Below, in pieces: positions 5,066 to 56,913 of a stretch of 64,000 nt of DNA (positions are counted from its first letter, which is position 1; every line of letters starts with the position of its first letter). Under the pieces are notes generated by a model that did not search any database, was not told where the DNA came from, and saw only the letters and a list, made by a program, of their open reading frames with translations. Made by a program: the position numbers and the translations under genes. Where the stretch lies: contig CM060850.1 of assembly GCA_030737835.1 (NCBI GenBank), positions 5,400,015 to 5,464,014 on the forward strand. Direction: 5' to 3'. Origin of the DNA: Acorus gramineus. Lineage: Eukaryota > Streptophyta > Magnoliopsida > Acorales > Acoraceae.

Positions 5066-7130
5066 TTCATGTTTTTTTGAAGAAATGATAGGCATGCATT
5101 CTACCTCAATTAGATTAAGAAAAGGAATTCCCAAAACAGGAAAGAATTACAAAAGCGAGCCACTAAAACTTGGCCTACTTGAAATAAAACCCAAATGAGA
5201 AGCAGCAAGTAGAAGAGTTATCTATACAATACCCCTTGATAATCAAAATAAAATATGTATCCATGTTATCTAGTTGTTCCTAATTTTTTAGAATTTTATT
5301 TGTTTTATGTTTTAATTTTAAACAATAAAATCAGATCACATTTTATTTTTTGTATCTTTTAATTTCTAATTTTTATTTTTATTTTATTTTATTTTTTTTT
5401 AATTATTTTTTTATTTTAAAAAACTTATCCTATTTTAACTGTAGTTTTTTTCTATTTTATTGGGATGTATTTTCTTTATTATCAGTTTAGAAATAGCCTG
5501 GCAAGGGAGAAAATTTTATCCAAGCAAGCCAGCCACAATGTTTTTTTTTTTTTTCCAAGCTTCAGCTAAGTTTAGGATTTTGAATTTTTTCAGGACTCCA
5601 GACTAGTTCATCTGTACCACTGCCTACAATTTCAGTTGCAGTTATTTCATTCCGCCCATTCCCCATTTGAAATCAGTTATCTCACTTTTGAGTCTTTATT
5701 GCACCCAAAAAGCAAGGATAATCTGTCACCAATATGGAATTTTAATCCTTTGCCTTCTATATATCTATCGATCAGATCAAATGTTGACATGCGAACCATT
5801 ATATGTGATATACTTGGTTTTTGTCCGGATTCTCCACACTACAGTACATGTTGCTCTTGCCTCCACCTCCCATATGAACTGAGTTTTAAGAACTACCCAC
5901 AAGCTTTCTTTGTTGGTAACATTATCCCAAAAGTGGATACAGGTAGCAGCCTTGCTCCAATCTTTGATTCTTTTGATACCCAACCCTCCTTCCACCGAAG
6001 GTGCATATATTGATTCTCAATTGACATAGTTTGAGGCTTATTTTTGGGGAGAGTCCTTCCACAAGAAGTCTTGAAATCAACTTCTCAACTTCTTTGATTG
6101 TTTTTGGGTGAATATAGGCTTGTCCAATGTAGATGAAGACCATGTAGAACTGTTCTGGCCAGCTCCAACCATCTAGTTGAAGAAAGTAGCAGAGTTTGCC
6201 AAAGAATGCAGTTTTTTTCCTCATCTTTGATATTAAAAGGCTAACAGTGTGAGTTTTTGAGAGAGAGATTCAGCATAGGGATGCCTAGGTACCTTATCGG
6301 GTTGGATCCTTCTTGTATTTCCAATTGTTTCCATGAAGCTTATTTTATTTGGGTCTCTTGAACTGAGAAAAACTTGGACTTTTTGAGATGTTCACCTTCA
6401 GTACAGTCTATAGAAAATTCATTTAATAACTTCACCAAATTTCTAGTCGTGGATGGGGATGAGTCTATTAATAATAGAAGGTCATCTGCAAAAGCAAGCT
6501 ATGATCGACCTATGTTAATGTTTTAAAAATCAAATTGTTCATTGAACCGAAAAAATGAATGGGTTAAGGGTCAACCAGATATGAACCGTGACATTATCAT
6601 AACATAACAAAAGTGCTAATTGTTATTACAAAATTAAGTAAAGTTATAAAAATATGAAATATTTTAGAAAATATTTAAAGAATTATCAAATCTTAATTTA
6701 ATAGTTTTTAAGCTTATATTTAAACATCATAATATGATTTTCTTATATAAATTGTAAATTTTTTATATTAAATTTCATATTTTAACATGCAATTAATCAC
6801 ACTTTTTATGAATACTTTAATCAACCCGTAACCGGTTCTTAAAAATCAATTGTTCAACCGGTAGGTTGATTGGTTTTATTAATTTTTTATACGGTTTGAT
6901 TTTAGGGGTAAACCAAACCAGAATGCAAAGCGGATGAAGACTTAACTAGTTCAATCAGTTGGGTCGGATCAGGTTTTAAAACACTACTTGTATGTTACCT
7001 TTGAGATAAGGTCCAATTGCTTTTGTTCTTATCTCTCATGATTCATTGAGAGAATCCTTCAAGCGCTAATACAAATAGGAGAGGGGAGAGAGGATCCCCG
7101 TTGTTATTGGTAGCCCTTGCATATTCGTCT
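5066..7130 (-). pseudogene. L1-type LINE relic: reverse transcriptase and 3' region, interrupted
   Basis: Read on the - strand, broken frames give GDPLSPLLFVLALEGFSQ (near 7040-7110), FADDLLLLID (the RT catalytic FADD box, near 6470-6500), RYLGIPMLNLSLK (near 6260), and GGLGIKRIKDWSKAA with ESLWV (5777-5995), the order seen in plant L1 ORF2. Several stops and frameshifts make it non-functional. A hAT-like MITE splits it at 6518-6989. The 3' portion may continue to 5066, where a T-rich/A-rich tail and unrelated AT-rich sequence (5236-5540) are mixed in. Confidence 0.8.
6518..6989. mobile_element. hAT-like MITE (family B) inserted in the LINE
   Basis: The flanks CTATGTTA (6510-6517) and GTATGTTA (6990-6997) match at 7 of 8 bases, as expected for a hAT 8-bp duplication. 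Ends: ATGTTTTAAAAATC and, in reverse complement, AAGTAGTGTTTTAAAACC. Internal AACCGGTTCTTAAAAATCA and a loop of AT-rich DNA are shared with the copy at 47917-49267. The LINE frame resumes on both sides, confirming the insertion. Confidence 0.8.
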
Positions 7131-21674: not shown

Positions 21675-24600
21675 TCAAAAACCACTATGTGGCTTCACCC
21701 CATTAACATGATACCTCATCATGGTGCTGCTGCTGCCCTCCCCACCTATCCCCACCTCCCTCCCATCCTCATCCTCCTCCGCCTTTGCCGCCGCAGCGGT
21801 CCCACCCGTCCCCATCAGATCCAACGGCCTCTGGTGATGCACTGGTGGTGGAGCAGCCTCGTAATAGTACTCGGCGGACAATGGGGGGGCCACAGAAGGG
21901 AGTTTGGAGAGGAGCGCTTCGAGGCTGCTCATCGAAGGCGTGACCACAAAGTGGTGGTGGTGGTCATAGAATTCCGGCATCGGGTGGTGGACCGGCCAGG
22001 CGTCCGGGGGGTGGGCGGTGTCAATCTTGAAAGGGTAGGCGGCGGCGGAGGAGGAAGAGGAGGAGGGGTGGGGGAGGAAGACGCCGGGGATGCTCTCCAG
22101 GTAGGCGAATTTCTTGCGCAGCTGGACCACATAGCTCAGATCCTCCACCACCTTTTTTTTTTTTTTTTTTTTGAAAAATGATAGACTCAAATCATTTTTT
22201 TTATTCAAAATTCATACCATATATGTTTTTAATTTTTTTTAATAGTAAACATCATCAAATGATATATATGCTTTGATAAAAAGTGTATATCGCTCTATTT
22301 TGAATTGAATGAGTCTATTTTTAGTAAATGTGAAAAAAAAAGTTTAACGACGTAAATATATTGTGTAATGATGCATATGTTCATTTAATTTTTAATTATG
22401 CATATGTTTCACTAAATTTCTAATTATGCATATAGGATTGTACAAAGGACTGAGTGTATAGCAAAGCCCTTTTTTTTTTTTTATAGAACATTGGTTGTGC
22501 ATGCAATATATGTTAATTAAACTTGAGGTTTCCATTCAAGGTGGATGTTGTACAGTGTTTGATCTAACACTATAGGGAGTTTATAGTGAATAGGAAGTGT
22601 TAAAACATTGAAACATACATATTCTGATTGATTGTGCGTGCTTCTTTCTATGCTTTGTCTGAATTTTATATGCTGAGCTAGGATTTCAATGCCCTATTAA
22701 ATAAGATATGGGCTTTGATAAACTGAGAGTCTATTTTATAATATCATTTGCAATTCAGTGACGTTCCTCTAGCCGCATTTACACTTTACTAGGGAAACGT
22801 ATTATGTATTAGTACAATATATACTTTATTAGCACAGCATATGTAAAAAAAAAAAAATGAAGTTTTTTGAATTGAAAAACAACTTTCTCTGCCAAACATT
22901 AAACTCCTTTCAAATATTAATTCATGATTTTAAAAAAAGCATTCTAAAAAAGTCAAAGTCTAAAATCATCTTAAAAAACAGCTTTATTTCAAAAGTTACT
23001 TTTCAATCTGTGTTTCCAAACGGACCCTCAAAAAGAAAAGAAAAAGAACTTTTTCTTTAACCCTGATCAATTGTTATATCCCTTACTAGCTATATACATT
23101 TAGAGGTGTCCAGTATGACTATTCTGATATATTCATCTAAAACTACAATTATATTGTGATAACAATTAAAATATACAAAAATATATCCAAAAAAAAAAAA
23201 ATTAAAACAAAAACAGTTCAATTTTCTTCTATTTATTTATATATATATATATGTATGTGCTAGAAACGGGGTTAATGTGTTTCCACATGTATTAATTAAA
23301 ATGACTAATGCTTAGTAATGGACCAATTCAAAAACTTAATTTCTAATTAAATTTATTTTATTTTTTTCAAAAAAAAGGGTAGGCATCCGCTCTTCTGCAA
23401 GAGCTTTGAAGAGAAACTGCTGTATATTAAAAGTGGCTGCCCATTATTATTATTACCTATAAAAAGGTAGCTGCCATGATTAATCTACTATAAAAGATCT
23501 AATAATAAATTCATAAATTCACAAGTACCTATAGAATCTATTATCATCCATTAAAATAACTCTAATCGTACCTTATTAGTCCTACCTTCCAGGTTGCTTA
23601 AATGCCTTACTATTATTTTTATGTTTTTTTTATTTTTTTGGTGCAATGCCTTACTTTGTGCTCTGTCACTTGTCCCCCCAGTACAAATGATTGATGACTT
23701 TGTTTTCTAATGAAAAGTGAATACGTGACATCACCTATATTTCTGTTACAAATTAAAGAGTTAAACCTAAGTTGTTTGTAACATAACAGCATGTTTAGTG
23801 TTTGCTTATAATGGGGTTATATATGTGTCATGACCTCTTAAAATAGCAAATCCATGGATTTGCTTTTTCTATGCGTGCATCTGTTTGTTTATGCAGGTGT
23901 TTTAAAACCCAACCCGACCGTTTGAACCAGTTAAACTTTCACTCACTTTGAATTCTAGTTCAATTTATCCTTAAAATTCAATGATATAAAAAATCGATAA
24001 ACCCCAATTAATCAACCTACGGTTGAACCAACGGTTCTTGTAAATCGACATGCGGTTTTTTGTGAACCGACATGGGTAGATAAATCAATCAATTCTTTAT
24101 TTATAGAAATTTTGTGTTGATTACTTGATAAAATATAAAATTTAATAAATTGTTTAGATTTTATATATTAAAATCATGTTATAATGTTAAATAAAAATTG
24201 TATACAAATGTTTTCTAAAATATTTCATGTATTTTTGTTTAGTGTTGATAATTAATAATTTAATATATTGTAATATATTTTGGTTCAAATCCAGTTGACT
24301 TGTGACTCAATGATTTTTCCAATTCATTCAACTATTTAATTTTTAAAACATTGGCTCAGAGAGGGGAAGAGAGAGATGGCTGACCTTGTTAATGGCTCCA
24401 AGCTGAATAACACCTTCTCTCAGAGCTATCAAAGCAATGGTCTGTTCAATTTCATACCACCAAAATTAGACCAAGCTCTACTTTCATCATTTAATGAAGC
24501 ATAAGCAACAAAAAAAAAACAATCATAATAATAATACTAACAAGGTACAACTCTACTGTTATATAAATTAAAATATATACTAAGATATATTATTATATGT

Positions 24601-47916: not shown

Positions 47917-49267
47917 ATGTTTTAAAAACCAAACCGTTCATTTACCCTAAGAAAAACTAATGGGTAAGGGTCACTCATTAACAGTTGAATTAACCGGATT
48001 TTAACCATGATATTATTGTGACTAATAAATACATCAATTACTATTATTAGTAAATAAGCAAGTTTAAAAAAATATGATAAATTTTAGAAAAATCTTTCCA
48101 TAATTATCAAGTCTTAAATCATAATTAATATTTTAACAAGTAATTAATCTCAATATTTATGTAAAATAACAGGCCAATAATCAACACATAACCGGTTCTT
48201 AAAAAAGAAATTTTTTAAAATAACCTCTTCAAAAAAAGTATTTCAGTTTTGACCCCAAAACCAGTTTAATTGCAAAACTGGTCGTGGGGGCTGGTTTGAC
48301 CAGTCAGCGCATCCACGTGGTGAGCTGACCGGTCCAAAAATGCTACGGGTGGAGACGTGATTGGTAATCACGTCTTCGTCCATTCAACCCTCCCCCTCTC
48401 CGCGAGCGCGCTACGACCTGTGCGCTCGCGGGGGACACGTCTCCCCCAAAGGGGAGTCGTGATTACCAATCATTGGGGGAGATGTGACGTGTCCTCACAC
48501 GCGCGGGGGTTGAATACTTGATTTTTTTTATTATTATTATTTTTAAGGGGGCATTGTGTTATTTATACTAGGGATTGAAAAAATTAAAAACAAGCATGAA
48601 AAGATAAAAACTCGAAACTGATTATGTGAAAATATGTTTTTTATAGAAATAGAATCAATTTAACTATTATTTTCAAACATGACGAATCTATAACTAAATA
48701 ACAAATAAAAATTTATAATGAGTATTATTTATATTTGAAAATGAATCATCTTCTTATCTTTTCACGCTTGTTTTTAATTTTTTCATTCCTTTGTGTAAAT
48801 AACACAATGCCCTCTTAAAAAAAATTAAGTATTCAACTCTCCGCGTGCGCATGCCGACCCGTGCGCTCGCGGGGGACACGTCTCCCCCACATGGGAGAAC
48901 GTGATTACTCCCCCACATGGGAGACGTACACGTCTCCCATGTGGGGGAGTACGTCTCCCATGTGGGGGAGACGTGCCCCCCGCCGGGTTAGCGTGCGCAC
49001 GCGGAGGGGGGAAGGTTGAATGGGTAAAGACGTGATTGATTCCGTAGCATTTTTTGGACAGGTCAACACGCCACGTGAACACGCTGACCGGTCAAACCAG
49101 CCTTCAAGACCAGTTTTTTTAAGGGGTTATTTTTGAAAATTTCCGTTTTTAAAAATCATCATTTAGATTGGTGAGTTAATTGGCTTTTATACTGTCTAGT
49201 TTTGAAAGTAAATCGGATTAGAATACAGTTCAACCGACCAGATCAGGTTGGGTTTCAAAACTCTACC
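47917..49267. mobile_element. Family B hAT-like MITE, split by a nested foldback
   Basis: Flanks TGAAAGTA (47909-47916) and TGAAAGCA (49268-49275) match at 7 of 8. Left end ATGTTTTAAAAACC. AACCGGTTCTTAAAAA at 48190-48205 and AAAAATCATC at 49151-49160 are the two halves of a site intact in the 6518-6989 copy. The foldback at 48206-49146 lies between. Confidence 0.8.
48206..49146. mobile_element. GC-rich foldback element (941 bp), MULE-like
   Basis: Nearly the whole element is one imperfect palindrome. Ends: GAAATTTTTTAAAATAACC and, in reverse complement, GGAAATTTTCAAAAATAACC. Flanks TCTTAAAAA and TTTTAAAAA fit a 9-bp duplication with one mismatch. Arms contain GGTTTGACCAGTCAGCG, AATGCTACGG and GGGGGACACGTCTCCCCC; the inner loop arms contain GGGCATTGTGTTATTTA and its inverse. 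The right arm has extra alternating copies of CATGGGAGACG and CGTCTCCCATG (48890-48975). No coding capacity. Confidence 0.85.
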
Positions 49268-50826: not shown

Positions 50827-53800
50827 TCAAAACAGTAGATTTGGATATTTCAGGTGCCTTGCCACTGTCTGCAAGTCTTTGGTACCCTCTCTGTCGCAGT
50901 TAACAACCACCCTAGCACCATCAGGCAATTCTGGGCACAACAATTCTAGGTAAGCCAATGCATGTGATGTTTCCAAGCCTGGGACAATTCCTTCTAGTCT
51001 TGCTAATCTCTCAAATGCTGCATTTCACAAAAACAAGATAATTCATTATATGTAGCATCATTGAAGTATGGAGACCATTATAAAATGCCAACACAAAAAC
51101 TCTATTATATCTCATAAACTAACTTGAATAATGTTGGCCCTTAGATTCCATCAATAAAATAATAGATCTATTATCCAGGATAAAATGTTGAATGGTAAAA
51201 TATATATATAGTTCCATTTTATGTAGCTGCATTTGATTCAAGGTATTTCAAAGTGATATTTTCAAATATTTCATGTTCCAAAAATATGGTGTTTGTTGTA
51301 AACTTGTAAATGAAGAATTAAAACTAGGGAAAGGGGAAGATGATTGAAGTCTGAGGTGTGAAGATCGCTGTCCTTAAAGTTATAATTGCCCCCACTCAAA
51401 AGAATTTGCTAAAAGGTTCAAGCAATTCACTTCCAGGATATAACAAACTCACATAGTTATGCAAATAGCAATTCTGAAGAATTCTCACAACACTTTAAGA
51501 CTTTAAAACTGATTTTTCTGGTGATTAATCTGTTCAATGAACAGATTTATATAGTGCTTGAAAGGTTGCATTTGCAACCTTTCAAAAATTTAGTTGTTAG
51601 TTGTTATGGGAAAGGGTGTTCGTTGGTTGGAGAGTTTTCTAAAGGGATGTATACCAAATGGAAGAGACTCCTGCATACCCAATTCAAAATTCAAAAAACA
51701 AAAAGAAAAGTCAGTAAAAATAATATCTCGCACACGCACAAAGTGCGCCTACTAATGCGCCTCGCGCGCACCCATGTATGTGCTTACACGCGTAAGCGTG
51801 TGTGGACTACTTTTCCCTTTGTCTTTTCTTGACACCACTAAAATAGTGAACCAATATATAAGTTGGAAAATTATTTTTCCACTTCCAATGTGGGACTATG
51901 TTTTAAGTCTTAAAGTCTCCGACCTATTACATTCTATTTAATAAAAATGTATTTTAAAATTATATTCTGAAAGCGTGTAGTAAAAAAAAATTGAACGCGA
52001 CCCCCTCTCTTCTAACAAGACGTAACCAAAATATGAAAATGGACTATTTTTAATAGCTCATTATTTATAAAAACAATGGTAAATATTTATAATACTCCAT
52101 ATCTTAAAATACATATCCACACACATTCAACGTACTAGATAAGAAGAACGAAACTTAATTGAACGCTTGATAACGCCTTTAGACGCGCTTCTGCTTTTTA
52201 ATAAAGTAAAATGCACAAGCATGTTATCAAGCGCCTCCTAAAAAACATGTTTAATTAAAAAGTTATTTAGAGCTTTTAGTATAAAAATATTATTTTTTAA
52301 AAAACACAGAAAATGTGCTTTCTAAAATTTGAGTTTATTTAAACTATTTTATTTAAAATCTTATTTTTTAAACTTATTTTCAAACCCTTAGATTAATATT
52401 ATGACTTATTTAAATAAGTCAAAAGGTAAGATGAACAAATGAATAACAACCTTGAGTAGGAGAATTGAATAGATGAGTTAGATAAATGTAGTTTTGATTA
52501 CCTTGAAGTGCCTCGTGATCAGTGATGCCATAATACTCGGCCCGGCCGATGCCTTTTAGAAAACTATGCTCCGGTCCAACGCCAGGATAATTCATGCTGC
52601 ATATAATATGCATCATGCATTAATTAATTTAGTACATTCTTACAAAAGTTAGGATACCGCAATAACATTACATGAATATGAAATATTTCATGGGCAATTT
52701 CAGTAGTGGAATAAAGGTGAAATAGTAGTGGATAAGATGAAATAACGAAAAAAATATATGTTTGGATGGACAGAATAATGCGGTATTGTTGTGTCTTAAT
52801 ATGGGAAATAATGTACGTGGTATTTGTAATGCTTCAGGCTTACACGTGTGATATTGTACGTTTTGTCCATAGACACAATTTAAAATGTGTCACAACATAT
52901 AAGTCTGAGATGTTACAATTGATATCAATGCGATGTCTAATGATGTGAGGTTAAAATTATGTGTTCAAAAGCAAAACAGAGAAAATATATATATATATCA
53001 CATATGTTAACCTCGAGAGTTACAATTGGTATTTGAATTTCTAAAAGTCCCCCTGACAACCGAACTACAAGGATTCAGGGTAATGTCCCACATATTTTTT
53101 TTAGTTAATTTGGTTTTTTTTAATACTTATATATTGACTCTATTACGTAGGTTGCTTGATTTGTTCATTAAGTGCCAAAATTGTACCCTAGGATATATCT
53201 TTTATTAATTTCAACAAACATACAAAATCATTCTTACCAAGGACTAATAGAATGAGTTTGAACTGTCTGACCATAATCATCCTGCAAAAGATAGCTCATA
53301 GCCCCATGTAGCACCCCAACCTCCCCTTTCACCAGCGCCGCCGAATGCCGCCCGCTGTCCAATCCCTGGCCGGCCGCCTCCACCCCGATCAGCCTCACAT
53401 CTTCGTCCCAATCGAATTCGTGGAACAACCCAATCGCGCTCGACCCCCTACCGACACAGGCCACCAACACGTCGGGCTTCCCACCCCACTTTTCCATGGC
53501 CTGTCTCCTCGTCTCTCGGCCGATCACCGCCTGGAATTCCCTAACCATCAATGGATACGGGTGTGGTCCGATGATCGAACCCATAACGTAATGGGTCGAG
53601 TTTAAATCCGATACCATGTCACGTATGGCCTCTGATACTGCATCCCTTAGAGTGGCTGTCCCGCTATGGACTGCTCTTACCTAAACGAGAATAAAGAGTG
53701 AGGTCATTGGTGAAGAGAAGAGAACCAAAAATGAAGTAGAAAAGTATGCATAATACTTAATTTTTTGGAGTTCAATTTGTTGGGTTTGTCTTGTATTCTA

Positions 53801-56800
53801 GTTTCTGAATCATGATACATAGAAGAATTACAATCAATGGAGTTTTTCCACAGTCAAATATAGTTTGCCTTTATAACCGGAAACAATGGTCAAGCTACTT
53901 GATTAGCTCGTTGAAAGCGAAGGGGCAATGCACCCAAAAAATAAAATAAAAAAACAAACCTCACATGTATTTTTCATGTGTAGTGAGTCTAGTGACAATG
54001 CTATGGTTATATATTATGTGTGGGAGCTTTAAGGATTTACAATCATGTATTGGGCTATAAACTCTGTTTATTAGTTAGGGGTATTTTCATTTTTTTTCTT
54101 ATTGCTACCATATTTATTCAGTCTATTCCTCTTTTTTTTGGGGGGGCTCTATTGTGTGTACGATTTTCTTTAAGAGAGAGAGACCGAGAGATTGTGTAAT
54201 TCAATTATTAGATTATAGTGGATCGTTTTCTGCTCTCTTTTATGGATGTAGACAAATGTTATTAATTCAAGTAAATTTGCGTGCTCTTTTGTATGATTTT
54301 ATTCTCTTTATTGTTCTAGAGGTGTTGAGACCTAACCCTAAAGGTGTCGCTACCTCGACATAGTGTTACTCCTGTGGCTACAAAAAAATTTAGCAAGAAA
54401 AAAATATAAACACAAAAAGAAGGCAACAAACACTAACCTCTGCTCCAAGAAGGTGCATTTTTGTGATGGAAAGAGGATCCCTTTTGAAGTCTTGAGCACC
54501 CATGTAAACAACACACTCCATACCTAATCTTGCACACAAAGAAGCAGTGGCAATACCATGCTGACCAGATGCTGTCTCTGCTATAATCCGTTTCTTGCCC
54601 AAGGTATGGGCAAGTAAAACTTGACCAACAGCATTGTTTATCTTATGTGAACCAGTGTGATTAAGATCTTCTCTTTTCAAGTAAATCTTTGGTCCCTCCC
54701 CATCTGATCTTTTATATTTGTTGGAGAGGTTCTCAGCAAAGTAAAGTGGAGTTTCCCGGCCAGCATAGTCCCTTAAAATCAAACTTAGCTTCCTCTGCAG
54801 AAGAACAGGACAAATTAATCAGTAGATGATCAAGTGTGGAAGCATATAAAAAAATGGAAGATGTATGCATGATTGATGCGTGTACGTATGGAAATTGAGC
54901 AAAATTTTATATTGACGCGTATGCGCAATGCATGCAATAAAGAATAGAGCGTCGACACACTCTGTCCTTTTTACAGCGCAGACTGCAATTTCATACACTA
55001 TGATAACATAGTATATGGGGTTCTATCATAATGTATATCAGTGTATACTTTATTTCATATAATAGTATGTGCTTTATTAAAAGAGTGATTTTTTGTATAA
55101 AAAAATGGTGTGGAATGTGGTTGGGGCTGCAGAATAAAATCTTTTTTGGACATATCATTTTTTAAAAAGATATATAGTAATAAAATCTTTTTTTATTTTT
55201 CTAGTTCAATATACTTCAAGCTAGTTATTACAAAAGTAATGAATCAACGATAACCCCACTCTCCCAACAAGTGAAAAAATGTACGACTCCCTCGATCAAG
55301 TTGTCAAAAGGTGGTTTGGTTGATTAATTAATTTGGATTGCCACTGAATCGATTAGAAAAGTTGTAAACAATACCTAAACTTGAAACTATATAGTAGTAT
55401 TCCATAATCTGTCAATCTAACAAGGGCAGACCCAGGAATTAGAGCAAAGACGGGTCAAAAGGTCAAGAGACTATATACCTTGAAATCTCATTATTTTCAT
55501 TACAAAAAATAGAAAAAAATAAGGTTCAAATTTTGAAAAAATGAATATATATGAATAAAATAACTTATTACAAAAATATATAAGGATATCCTTTAAACTT
55601 ATATTTTGAGGGGATATTTTAAAACCTAAGTTTTAAAAAAATTGAGAGACTTAATATAGCAAATTAAAAATCAAAATAATCCAAAAAATGGCTAAAACAA
55701 AAGTCAAATCAGTGATTTTTCAACCCTTGAAATCCATATATCAATATTCCCTTAAAAACAAAAAGATTTTCACATTTTTTTTAAAAGAAGGCCACCCACC
55801 CATTCCTTCAAATCTCAAAATATTCAATGGGATCCAATATACTCAGTCCATTTTGTAGCTCTATTTGCTATCGCCACGCTTAACACAATTTATAAAATTG
55901 ACTAACTCAGTATATTTTATTATCTCCGTATACACAATTATAGAAAACATAAATTAAATATATGCATTTATTTTCATTAGAGCATTTATTTCATTTTCTA
56001 TTTAAAAACAATTGTACTTCATTTATTAATATATTTGATTACATAGGTATATAATTGTTTGAGTTAATGTGAGACATCCTTAATTAGATGGATATTATTG
56101 AAATTCAGAATTCACTAGAATTTGAGGATTGGGCACGTGTGATTTTCCGATTTGATTGGGTCGGTGGGCTCAATTGGAAGTGTTTTGTTTTTAGTACCCT
56201 TGGACATTTATTACTCTCTCTATCCCCTATTTTGACCGATGGCCCGCCCGGGTCCGCCTCTAAACCTAACTTTACTTTCAAAAAATCAAAAGCATCTTTC
56301 TTATATGAACTTTCTTTCGGTTCAATCTGTCGTTTATTAAACCAAAATGTGTATCATGTGCAGATATGAAAGTTATATAAAAAAAAATATATATATATAA
56401 TAATTACTACTTACTAATTCAGTTCATGATTGCAGCTTAATTCGGTTCAGCATAACATCAACAACCTCAAAATCTTAACCCATACCAAACCAAAGTCAGT
56501 TTTAGATTGATCTTTTAGTGTCAAACGTGAAATTGTTTTTTTTTTTTTTTAGTGAAAGATAGAAAACTAGAAGAATCAGTTACGATTTGTTCAAAGATAG
56601 TGAAAAACCTGGAATTCTTGATTTGCCGCCAGTGATCGAAACGCGGATTCCAGATCTGTGAGCGCGGACACGAGCACCTCCGGAACAAACCTCCCCCCAA
56701 ACTTCCCAAACTTCCCAAACTCATCTGGAAAGGCCTTCACAGCAACTGATTTGTAAGGCTTCACAATCCTCCCATTTGAAGGTGGGCTTAAGTGGCCACT

Positions 56801-56821
56801 GAGAACTGTTAAGGTATGCAT
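50827..56821 (-). CDS. TSB: Tryptophan synthase beta-like PLP enzyme, divergent active site (5 exons)
   Basis: Exons on the - strand: 56821-56609, 54794-54438, 53680-53238, 52596-52502 and 51017-50827. They sum to 1299 bp, 432 residues, all GT-AG. Family blocks in order: [11 protein letters not shown] (38-48), [13 protein letters not shown] with Schiff-base Lys122, AETASGQHG with catalytic Glu144, [10 protein letters not shown] (195-204), [12 protein letters not shown], then the PLP-phosphate loop at 267-271, [33 protein letters not shown] and [11 protein letters not shown]. TrpB joins indole and serine to make tryptophan in plastids. Several usually invariant positions differ: the phosphate loop reads GRGSS instead of [14 protein letters not shown] replaces the N(L/C)SGRGDKD segment, so the Ser that touches the PLP ring nitrogen is Asp; CMNYPG replaces GLDYPG, so the mobile Asp (Asp305 of Salmonella) is Asn; and AETAS replaces AETGA. 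The N-terminal extension is only about 37 residues, short for a plant TSB transit peptide. A fit to the divergent TSB3-type paralogues (e.g. Arabidopsis At5g28237) is plausible but untested. Confidence 0.93.
51018..52501 (-). other. Intron 4 of the TSB-like gene with an LTR-like relic
   Basis: Besides unique AT-rich DNA, the segment about 51520-51930 holds CG-dinucleotide-rich text (CGCACACGCAC, GCCTCGCGCGC, ACACGCGTAAGCGTGTG) followed by TATATAAGTTGG and CCAATGTGGGACTA, a combination often seen in plant Copia LTRs and TRIM elements. No matching second LTR was found, so solo LTR or relic is only a suggestion. Confidence 0.35.
54950..55150. repeat. Dispersed family D copy in TSB-like intron 1
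   Basis: AATTTCATACACTATGATAA, CATAGTATATGGGG, ATCATAATGTATATCAGTGT and TAATAGTATGTG. Matches the arrangement at 63240-63550. Confidence 0.5.
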
Positions 56822-56913
56822 GTTTTTTGAAATGATGAATACAATAAAGCATTTGGTGGGCTGTTTGTTTATGGTGTTCTCTCTCCTTCTTCTTCTTCTT
56901 CTTCTCTTTTTAG

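Follow-up and report, generated by a model that had tools for sequence, protein, structure and literature searches.

A non-canonical tryptophan synthase beta (TSB) paralogue of Acorus gramineus with an altered cofactor pocket

Introduction

TSB is a very conserved plant enzyme, and Acorus is the branch sister to all other monocots. A TSB-type gene in a 64,000-nucleotide stretch of Acorus gramineus DNA, which is referred to here as the window, raises the question of what such a protein can be kept for when residues that contact its PLP cofactor have been replaced. A preliminary description of this locus proposed that the residue equivalent to Ser377 of Salmonella TrpB has become Asp, that the PLP chemistry may be changed as a result, and that the product may not be tryptophan. 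Simulations of TrpB show an interaction between the ring nitrogen of PLP and the Ser377 hydroxyl (PMC5119520), and most fold type II enzymes are described as having Ser or Thr at this position, with Glu in the ACC deaminases (PMC3344862).

Gene structure and family assignment

Reading frames and splice sites define an intact gene of five exons on the minus strand, which encodes 432 residues; no stop, frameshift or lost splice site was found in this gene model. Its four introns are all bounded by GT and AG, and the first donor (GTTTTT) is weak. The exons and the codons discussed below are as follows.

56609..56821, minus strand: exon 1, residues 1-71, with the ATG start at 56821
54438..54794, minus strand: exon 2, residues 72-190, with the PLP lysine and the substrate-carboxylate loop; its length of 357 nt matches both canonical genes
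54642..54644, minus strand: codon of Lys122, the equivalent of Salmonella Lys87, kept
54567..54572, minus strand: codons of Ala146-Ser147, where the carboxylate loop GAGQHG has become ASGQHG
53238..53680, minus strand: exon 3, residues 191-337 and 2 further nt; its length of 443 nt matches both canonical genes
53438..53452, minus strand: phosphate-binding loop, residues 267-271, where GGGSN has become GRGSS
52502..52596, minus strand: exon 4, from the end of residue 338 to the start of 370; its length of 95 nt matches both canonical genes
52590..52592, minus strand: codon of Asn340, the equivalent of Asp305 (P. furiosus Asp300), where SAGLDYPG has become SPCMNYPG
50827..51017, minus strand: exon 5, from the end of residue 370 to the stop, with acceptor TGCAG and stop TGA
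50875..50910, minus strand: 12-residue segment that holds Asp411, whose codon GAC lies at 50895-50893

The interval 50827-51017, to which the preliminary description had assigned the changed segment, is exactly the last coding exon. The canonical genes of the list are two TSB genes of the same genome (L018 and L019, on contigs C1 and C11, the window gene being on C4). All three genes have five exons in the same phases with exons 2, 3 and 4 of equal length, whereas exon 5 of the window gene has 191 nt against 176 nt in the canonical genes, owing to a longer C-terminal tail. Exon 1 encodes a short N-terminus that is unlike the starts of the canonical Acorus TSBs; the A. calamus protein P0001 begins at the same Met as the window protein. 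An out-of-frame ATG lies at 56850-56852 on the minus strand, about 30 nt before the start codon, and its frame overlaps the coding start, an arrangement that could lower translation.

By sequence, the product belongs to the TrpB1/TSB family, since it scores 530 bits against the NCBIfam model TIGR00263 (trpB), for which the cut-off is 392.45. Against TIGR01415 (trpB_rel), the model of TSB type II or TrpB2, it scores 145 bits, far under the cut-off of 518.85, although it shares the PLP fold type II with that family. A TSB type II gene seems to be present elsewhere in the genome: exon matches resembling a TrpB2-like gene (L020) occur at C4:6.02 Mb, on the contig of the window gene and about 0.57 Mb away from it.

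The window protein aligns with solved TrpB structures from about residue 38 to near its C-terminal end. A model predicted for P0001 has a mean pLDDT of 67.7, and one for the canonical A. calamus protein P0003, made with the same 38 sequences, has 64.8, both of which are moderate values. In a Foldseek search with the predicted model, all 50 matches listed were TrpB chains, natural or engineered, with TM scores of about 0.7 and rmsd values of 5.5-6.4. A TrpB fold is thus predicted for the Acorus paralogue, and the models carry no information on its pocket.

Elsewhere in the window, ten other open frames (for example 5925-6269 and 21678-22211) were compared with Pfam, where none scored above the curated cut-off and no second gene was recognised; one weak match to Rep_N (E 0.005) was seen among them. 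Downstream of the TSB gene, positions 48196-49154 hold nested inverted repeats that together span about 960 bp. The outer arms measure 41 and 67 nt and are 80-84% complementary, more arm pairs lie within them, some GC-rich, and the whole looks like a foldback or terminal-inverted-repeat element.

Loss of the Ser377 equivalent

In an alignment to P. furiosus TrpB, Asp411 of the window protein stands opposite the Ser of NLSGRGDKD with no gap in the segment, and the reported replacement of the Ser377 equivalent by Asp was confirmed, as was that of the following Gly-Arg by Arg-Glu. The same motif differs further in that the Asp of GDKD has become Thr (GTKD). It had been conceivable that all TSB-type proteins carry these residues, which is not what was found in the 175 proteins compared: Ser occupies the column in 165 of the 165 other proteins that have a letter there, and 10 are gapped. 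These 175 proteins are the best matches listed from three protein searches and hence close relatives only, mostly from land plants with a few algae and unnamed sources.

The A. calamus protein P0001 has Asn at the Ser377 column and Ser-Glu after it (VVNCNSEGTKD). As read from the two proteins, the loss of Ser, along with about 50 further replacements at near-invariant columns, is common to both Acorus copies, whereas Asp is not conserved between them. Since P0001 also lacks the Ser and has the other pocket changes in common with the window protein, a sequencing error or chance is ruled out as the source of the replacement. Another candidate explanation, an alternative last exon that would restore SGRGDKD, was sought by tblastn of a canonical TSB and P0001 over the window; this search recovered the five exons of the gene, and its remaining matches were at the level of chance, with E values of at least 0.7, so no different last exon was found in the window.

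At the codon level, the canonical Acorus TSBs read TGC AGC GGC (CGA or AGA) GGC GAC in this region and, from the second of these codons (AGC) onwards, the window gene reads GAC AGA GAG GGT ACC. It is possible that Ser (AGC) became Asn and then Asp (GAC) by single steps, a path that is drawn here from the A. gramineus codons and the A. calamus protein. The CDREGT segment can possibly also be aligned with one codon lost and one gained nearby, on the basis that its Arg codon AGA matches the AGA of L019, in which case Asp411 would descend from Gly378. Under this alternative alignment the position after VVNC, the site facing the ring nitrogen, stays the same.

Other changed and conserved residues

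The last exon is one of several altered regions. In a core of 392 columns, 247 show at least 97% conservation across 165 other TSBs; the window protein differs at 50 of these and P0001 at 54, where the median is 1. When all 175 sequences are used, there are 254 near-invariant columns, of which 53 are changed in the window protein. The changes at such columns include G268R, N271S, G338C and D340N, and they affect the carboxylate loop, the phosphate loop, the SAGLD motif (SPCMN, with Asp305 replaced by Asn) and part of the COMM domain. Both Acorus copies have the GRGSS form of the phosphate loop, the second position of which is Gly in 172 of the 173 others with a letter. The Asp305 equivalent, a residue that closes the TrpB subunit, is Asn340 in the window protein (opposite the Asp of GLDYPG in P. 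furiosus TrpB) and Asp in all other TSBs with a letter at this column (170/170), and the Asn236 equivalent, which shows no exception in 163 of 163 other TSBs, is lost in the Acorus paralogue. The changes in the phosphate loop and at the Asp305 equivalent weigh at least as strongly on function as those in the last-exon segment.

Other catalytic positions are conserved. The equivalents of His86, Lys87, Glu109, Thr110, Gly113, Gln114, His115, Gly232, Gly234, Ser235 and Glu350 are all kept, and both Acorus copies have the PLP lysine (K122) and the Glu109 equivalent (E144). At the 25 positions that we take, from the Salmonella enzyme, to form the active site, 9 are changed compared with 44 of 229 elsewhere, a difference that is not significant (Fisher p 0.067). 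Near-invariant columns within what we take to be the limits of the COMM domain in the alignment are changed more often than the remainder (23/74 vs 30/180, p 0.017).

Some of these replacements also occur one at a time in other species. In a TSB1-like protein of Tasmannia lanceolata (P0025), the phosphate loop carries the same Gly to Arg change, the Tyr that follows the Asp305 equivalent has become Asn, and one residue is missing from the GRGDKD segment. The SAG motif differs in a Closterium TSB; the Tasmannia Arg and the Closterium change suggest that single changes may be tolerated. In a TSB of Protea cynaroides (P0057), Asn replaces the PLP-binding Lys (the column of K122 in the window protein) and 16 conserved columns are changed, so this protein is possibly another, independently altered TSB paralogue.

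Such single occurrences in plant and algal TSBs, the TIGR00263 score and the retained catalytic Lys and Glu are what could be expected if the protein were still a tryptophan synthase that has simply evolved faster and tolerates its changes. This explanation is judged distinctly unlikely, as the equivalents of Ser377, Asp305 and Asn236, none of which varies in the other TSBs compared, are lost together, and as the 50-54 changes at conserved columns far exceed the median. The suggestion that the product may not be tryptophan gains support as a reading of the protein sequence.

Relatives and origin of the paralogue

P0001 of A. calamus, from locus CPB15g01837, is the closest protein match, with 95% identity, and is followed by ordinary plant TSBs at about 70%, including P0003 (best 120 of 7997 matches). 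When a strongly changed part of the protein (residues 112-240) was used as the query, P0001 alone was close among the 120 matches listed of about 8000. Among the matches listed, the gene thus appears to be an old TSB duplicate confined to Acorus. Compared with canonical plant TSBs of the TrpB1 type (P0003, L018 and L019), it shares the gene structure described above, about 70% protein identity, an alignment to P0003 with no gap in the 392 core columns, and the PLP lysine and indole-activating Glu, and it differs at the Ser377, Asp305, Gly233 and Asn236 equivalents, at about 50 near-invariant columns and in its short, unrelated N-terminus.

Its placement among TSBs differed between two trees. 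A first tree put the window gene beside Protea, and a tree to which both canonical genes of the genome had been added grouped the odd Acorus pair with the Acorus TSBs, at a weak support of 84/31. AU tests rejected none of the placements compared, namely an Acorus origin (p-AU 0.38 and 0.64), a link to the Fagales TSB1-like proteins (0.30) and a position outside the sampled angiosperm TSBs (0.30). The long branch of the paralogue has 1.16 changes per column, against a median of 0.056 for tips; Acorus is described as slow-evolving (PMC9300462), which makes this long branch more unusual.

The Fagales TSB1-like proteins of Fagus, Carpinus and Castanea (P0089, P0109 and P0123) form a distinct clade that has Ser120, Gly128 and Val130 in common with the Acorus paralogue. 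A search from this clade gave no recognisable At5g28237 or TSB-like sequence among the 120 matches listed. At5g28237 is Arabidopsis TSB4 (PMC10142997) and is presumably the TSB-like gene of PMC12727527.

Age and selection

Rates were estimated with a codon model written for this analysis rather than with PAML. The canonical pair on C1 and C11 has a dS of 0.49 and an omega of 0.033, and this dS is close to the Ks of about 0.46 given for the Acorus whole-genome duplication (PMC10282084). The window gene has dS values of 3.6 and 2.2 to C1 and C11, both saturated, with omega values of 0.05 and 0.09. Simple counting also gives saturated values (infinite for C1 and 2.6 for C11), so that the age rests on the codon model, which supports only a date much older than the split of C1 and C11.

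In a model of the three genes, omega is 0.033 on the canonical branches and 0.080 on the window branch, which includes the stem of the canonical genes, so that the latter figure averages across the two lineages and through time. Setting omega on this branch to 0.05, 0.15, 0.2 or 1.0 lowers lnL by 1.7, 5, 12 or 109, respectively. The window gene is thus much older than the whole-genome duplication and has evolved under purifying selection for the greater part of its existence. A pseudogene state for most of its history is ruled out by these codon data, in which an omega of 1 fits far worse, and the view that an intact frame speaks against simple, long-standing decay was borne out by this average omega and by the equal lengths of exons 2-4.

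The recent history of the gene can be read in two ways. Nine of the 18 core differences between the window protein and P0001 fall in near-invariant columns; in a control of 221 TSB pairs with 12-26 differences, drawn from 124 gap-free sequences of other TSBs, this share has a mean of 4% and a maximum of 21%. The protein data alone resembled relaxation, a picture that was altered by the codon data of the canonical genes. If P0001 is the orthologue, an omega of 0.08 and the published Ks of 0.058 predict about 4 core changes where 18 are seen (P 4e-7), and the recent omega would be about 0.38; the canonical pair C1/P0003 has only 3 core residue differences. At a Ks of at least 0.2 and the same omega of 0.08, the excess of differences between the window protein and P0001 vanishes. 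The alternatives are a recent loosening of constraint and an origin of P0001 from a different copy.

This excess, and the half of the 18 differences that hits conserved columns, could indicate a once-useful copy that was maintained for most of its history, has recently been relaxed and is heading towards a pseudogene. That outcome is considered improbable. Neither copy is truncated or internally gapped (P0001 as annotated), and neutrality at a Ks of 0.058 predicts about 49 differences over the whole protein where 22 are seen, although the chance of at most 22 differences at neutrality increases to 0.11 if rates vary strongly between genes. Neutral drift to 22 differences with neither a stop nor a frameshift has a probability of 0.01-0.11 (for assumed indel/substitution ratios of 0.15-0.05). 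In addition, P0001 may be a copy from the whole-genome duplication rather than the orthologue, in which case there would be no acceleration.

Possible functions of the paralogue

The proposal of changed PLP chemistry stood in part: the Ser is gone from an intact frame, but the idea that Asp was installed to set the protonation of the pyridine nitrogen was not supported, because P0001 has Asn at this position and Ser instead of Arg beside it, so that a carboxylate is not a conserved feature. The proposal can be widened from Asp to all of the changed residues, such that PLP would be bound via Lys122 and the altered pocket, with an acid or amide at the ring nitrogen and an Arg in the phosphate loop, would catalyse another beta-replacement, an elimination or a racemisation. 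The retained equivalents of Lys87, Glu109, Thr110, Gln114, His115, Ser235 and Glu350 and the low average omega are in keeping with an active enzyme of this kind, and there is precedent for an acid at the ring nitrogen of a fold type II enzyme in the ACC deaminases (Glu295/Glu296), a different family that resembles the window copy in this acidic residue and differs in that the residue is not conserved in the A. calamus copy (PMC3344862). Glu/Ser exchanges are cited there as interconverting plant D-cysteine desulfhydrase and ACC deaminase (PMC3344862), and TrpB S377D and S377E are cited as being more readily inactivated by aminoacrylate, so that this site tunes chemistry (PMC9127364). On the other hand, Salmonella D-cysteine desulfhydrase failed to bind PLP when it carried the acid changes T288E or T315L/T288E (PMC3344862), and a Gly to Arg change within the phosphate loop probably hinders PLP binding. 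When these points are combined with the lack of conservation of Asp and of its neighbour, an enzyme with changed chemistry seems rather unlikely; a new PLP chemistry set by Asp itself is possible and weakly supported.

A precedent of another type comes from core eudicots, in which a catalytically dead TSB paralogue was reported in 2025 to drive indole release (PMC12727527). This protein, TSB-like, does not synthesise tryptophan; it binds and activates TSA, and indole is released. It is known from A. thaliana, A. squarrosa and others, is marked by a change of Asp386 to Glu and, in nearly all cases, of Glu190 to Ala, and is described as having been found in no monocots or basal eudicots (PMC12727527). 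The Acorus gene is similarly a TSB-derived paralogue beside ordinary TSBs that is changed at the Asp305 equivalent and would likely not make tryptophan. It retains Glu144 at the position of Glu190 (Glu109 of Salmonella) and has Asn at that of Asp386 (Asp305), lacks both published marks and is therefore not classed as TSB-like; it also differs in coming from a monocot and in its additional PLP-pocket changes. The name ‘Acorus’ does not occur in PMC12727527, nor does ‘tryptophan’ in the main text of either Acorus genome paper, and among publications judged by title or the start of the abstract none was found that describes this Acorus gene.

The explanation that we tentatively prefer, while giving it somewhat less than an even chance, is that this gene encodes a maintained, non-canonical TSB paralogue that is no longer an ordinary tryptophan synthase and is kept for another, likely non-catalytic role as a partner of TSA or TSB. 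The protein is probably catalytically crippled, judging from its residues: PLP binding and domain closure would be impaired, and the joining of serine and indole would be lost or very weak. The D/N difference between the Acorus copies at the ring-nitrogen residue is unexpected for a working catalytic contact. If the protein is kept for another role, the most likely one would be to pair with the TSA subunit or, by forming mixed dimers, with canonical TSB, and so to change how indole is formed, much like the TSB-like protein of core eudicots. This mode of action is suggested by the combination of a changed Asp305 equivalent, a damaged cofactor pocket and the maintenance of the protein beside two good TSBs.

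Several features argue against a non-catalytic partner role or qualify it. The catalytic Lys and the Glu109 equivalent are kept, whereas eudicot TSB-like lacks this Glu, and the excess of changes in the COMM domain would not favour an intact interaction with TSA. Because the N-terminus is unlike that of the canonical copies, plastid import, and with it a meeting with TSA in the plastid, may be uncertain. The latest split of the paralogue may also reflect relaxed constraint.

A more specific proposal is that a TSB-derived pseudoenzyme arose in Acorus separately from that of core eudicots and through other mutations, which altered the cofactor pocket and turned Asp305 into Asn, where the eudicot protein has Glu to Ala and Asp to Glu. 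Such a pseudoenzyme would switch TSA from tryptophan to free indole. This proposal is regarded as unlikely. If it were true, the decay of a TSB into an activator of TSA would be a repeated route to indole in plants, and one that is present in a group without a reported TSB-like gene. A paralogue that sits beside two normal-looking TSBs in the sister branch of all other monocots thus provides a natural case for asking if the TSB-like trick evolved twice, and for asking which other uses could preserve a TSB that has lost its cofactor contacts.
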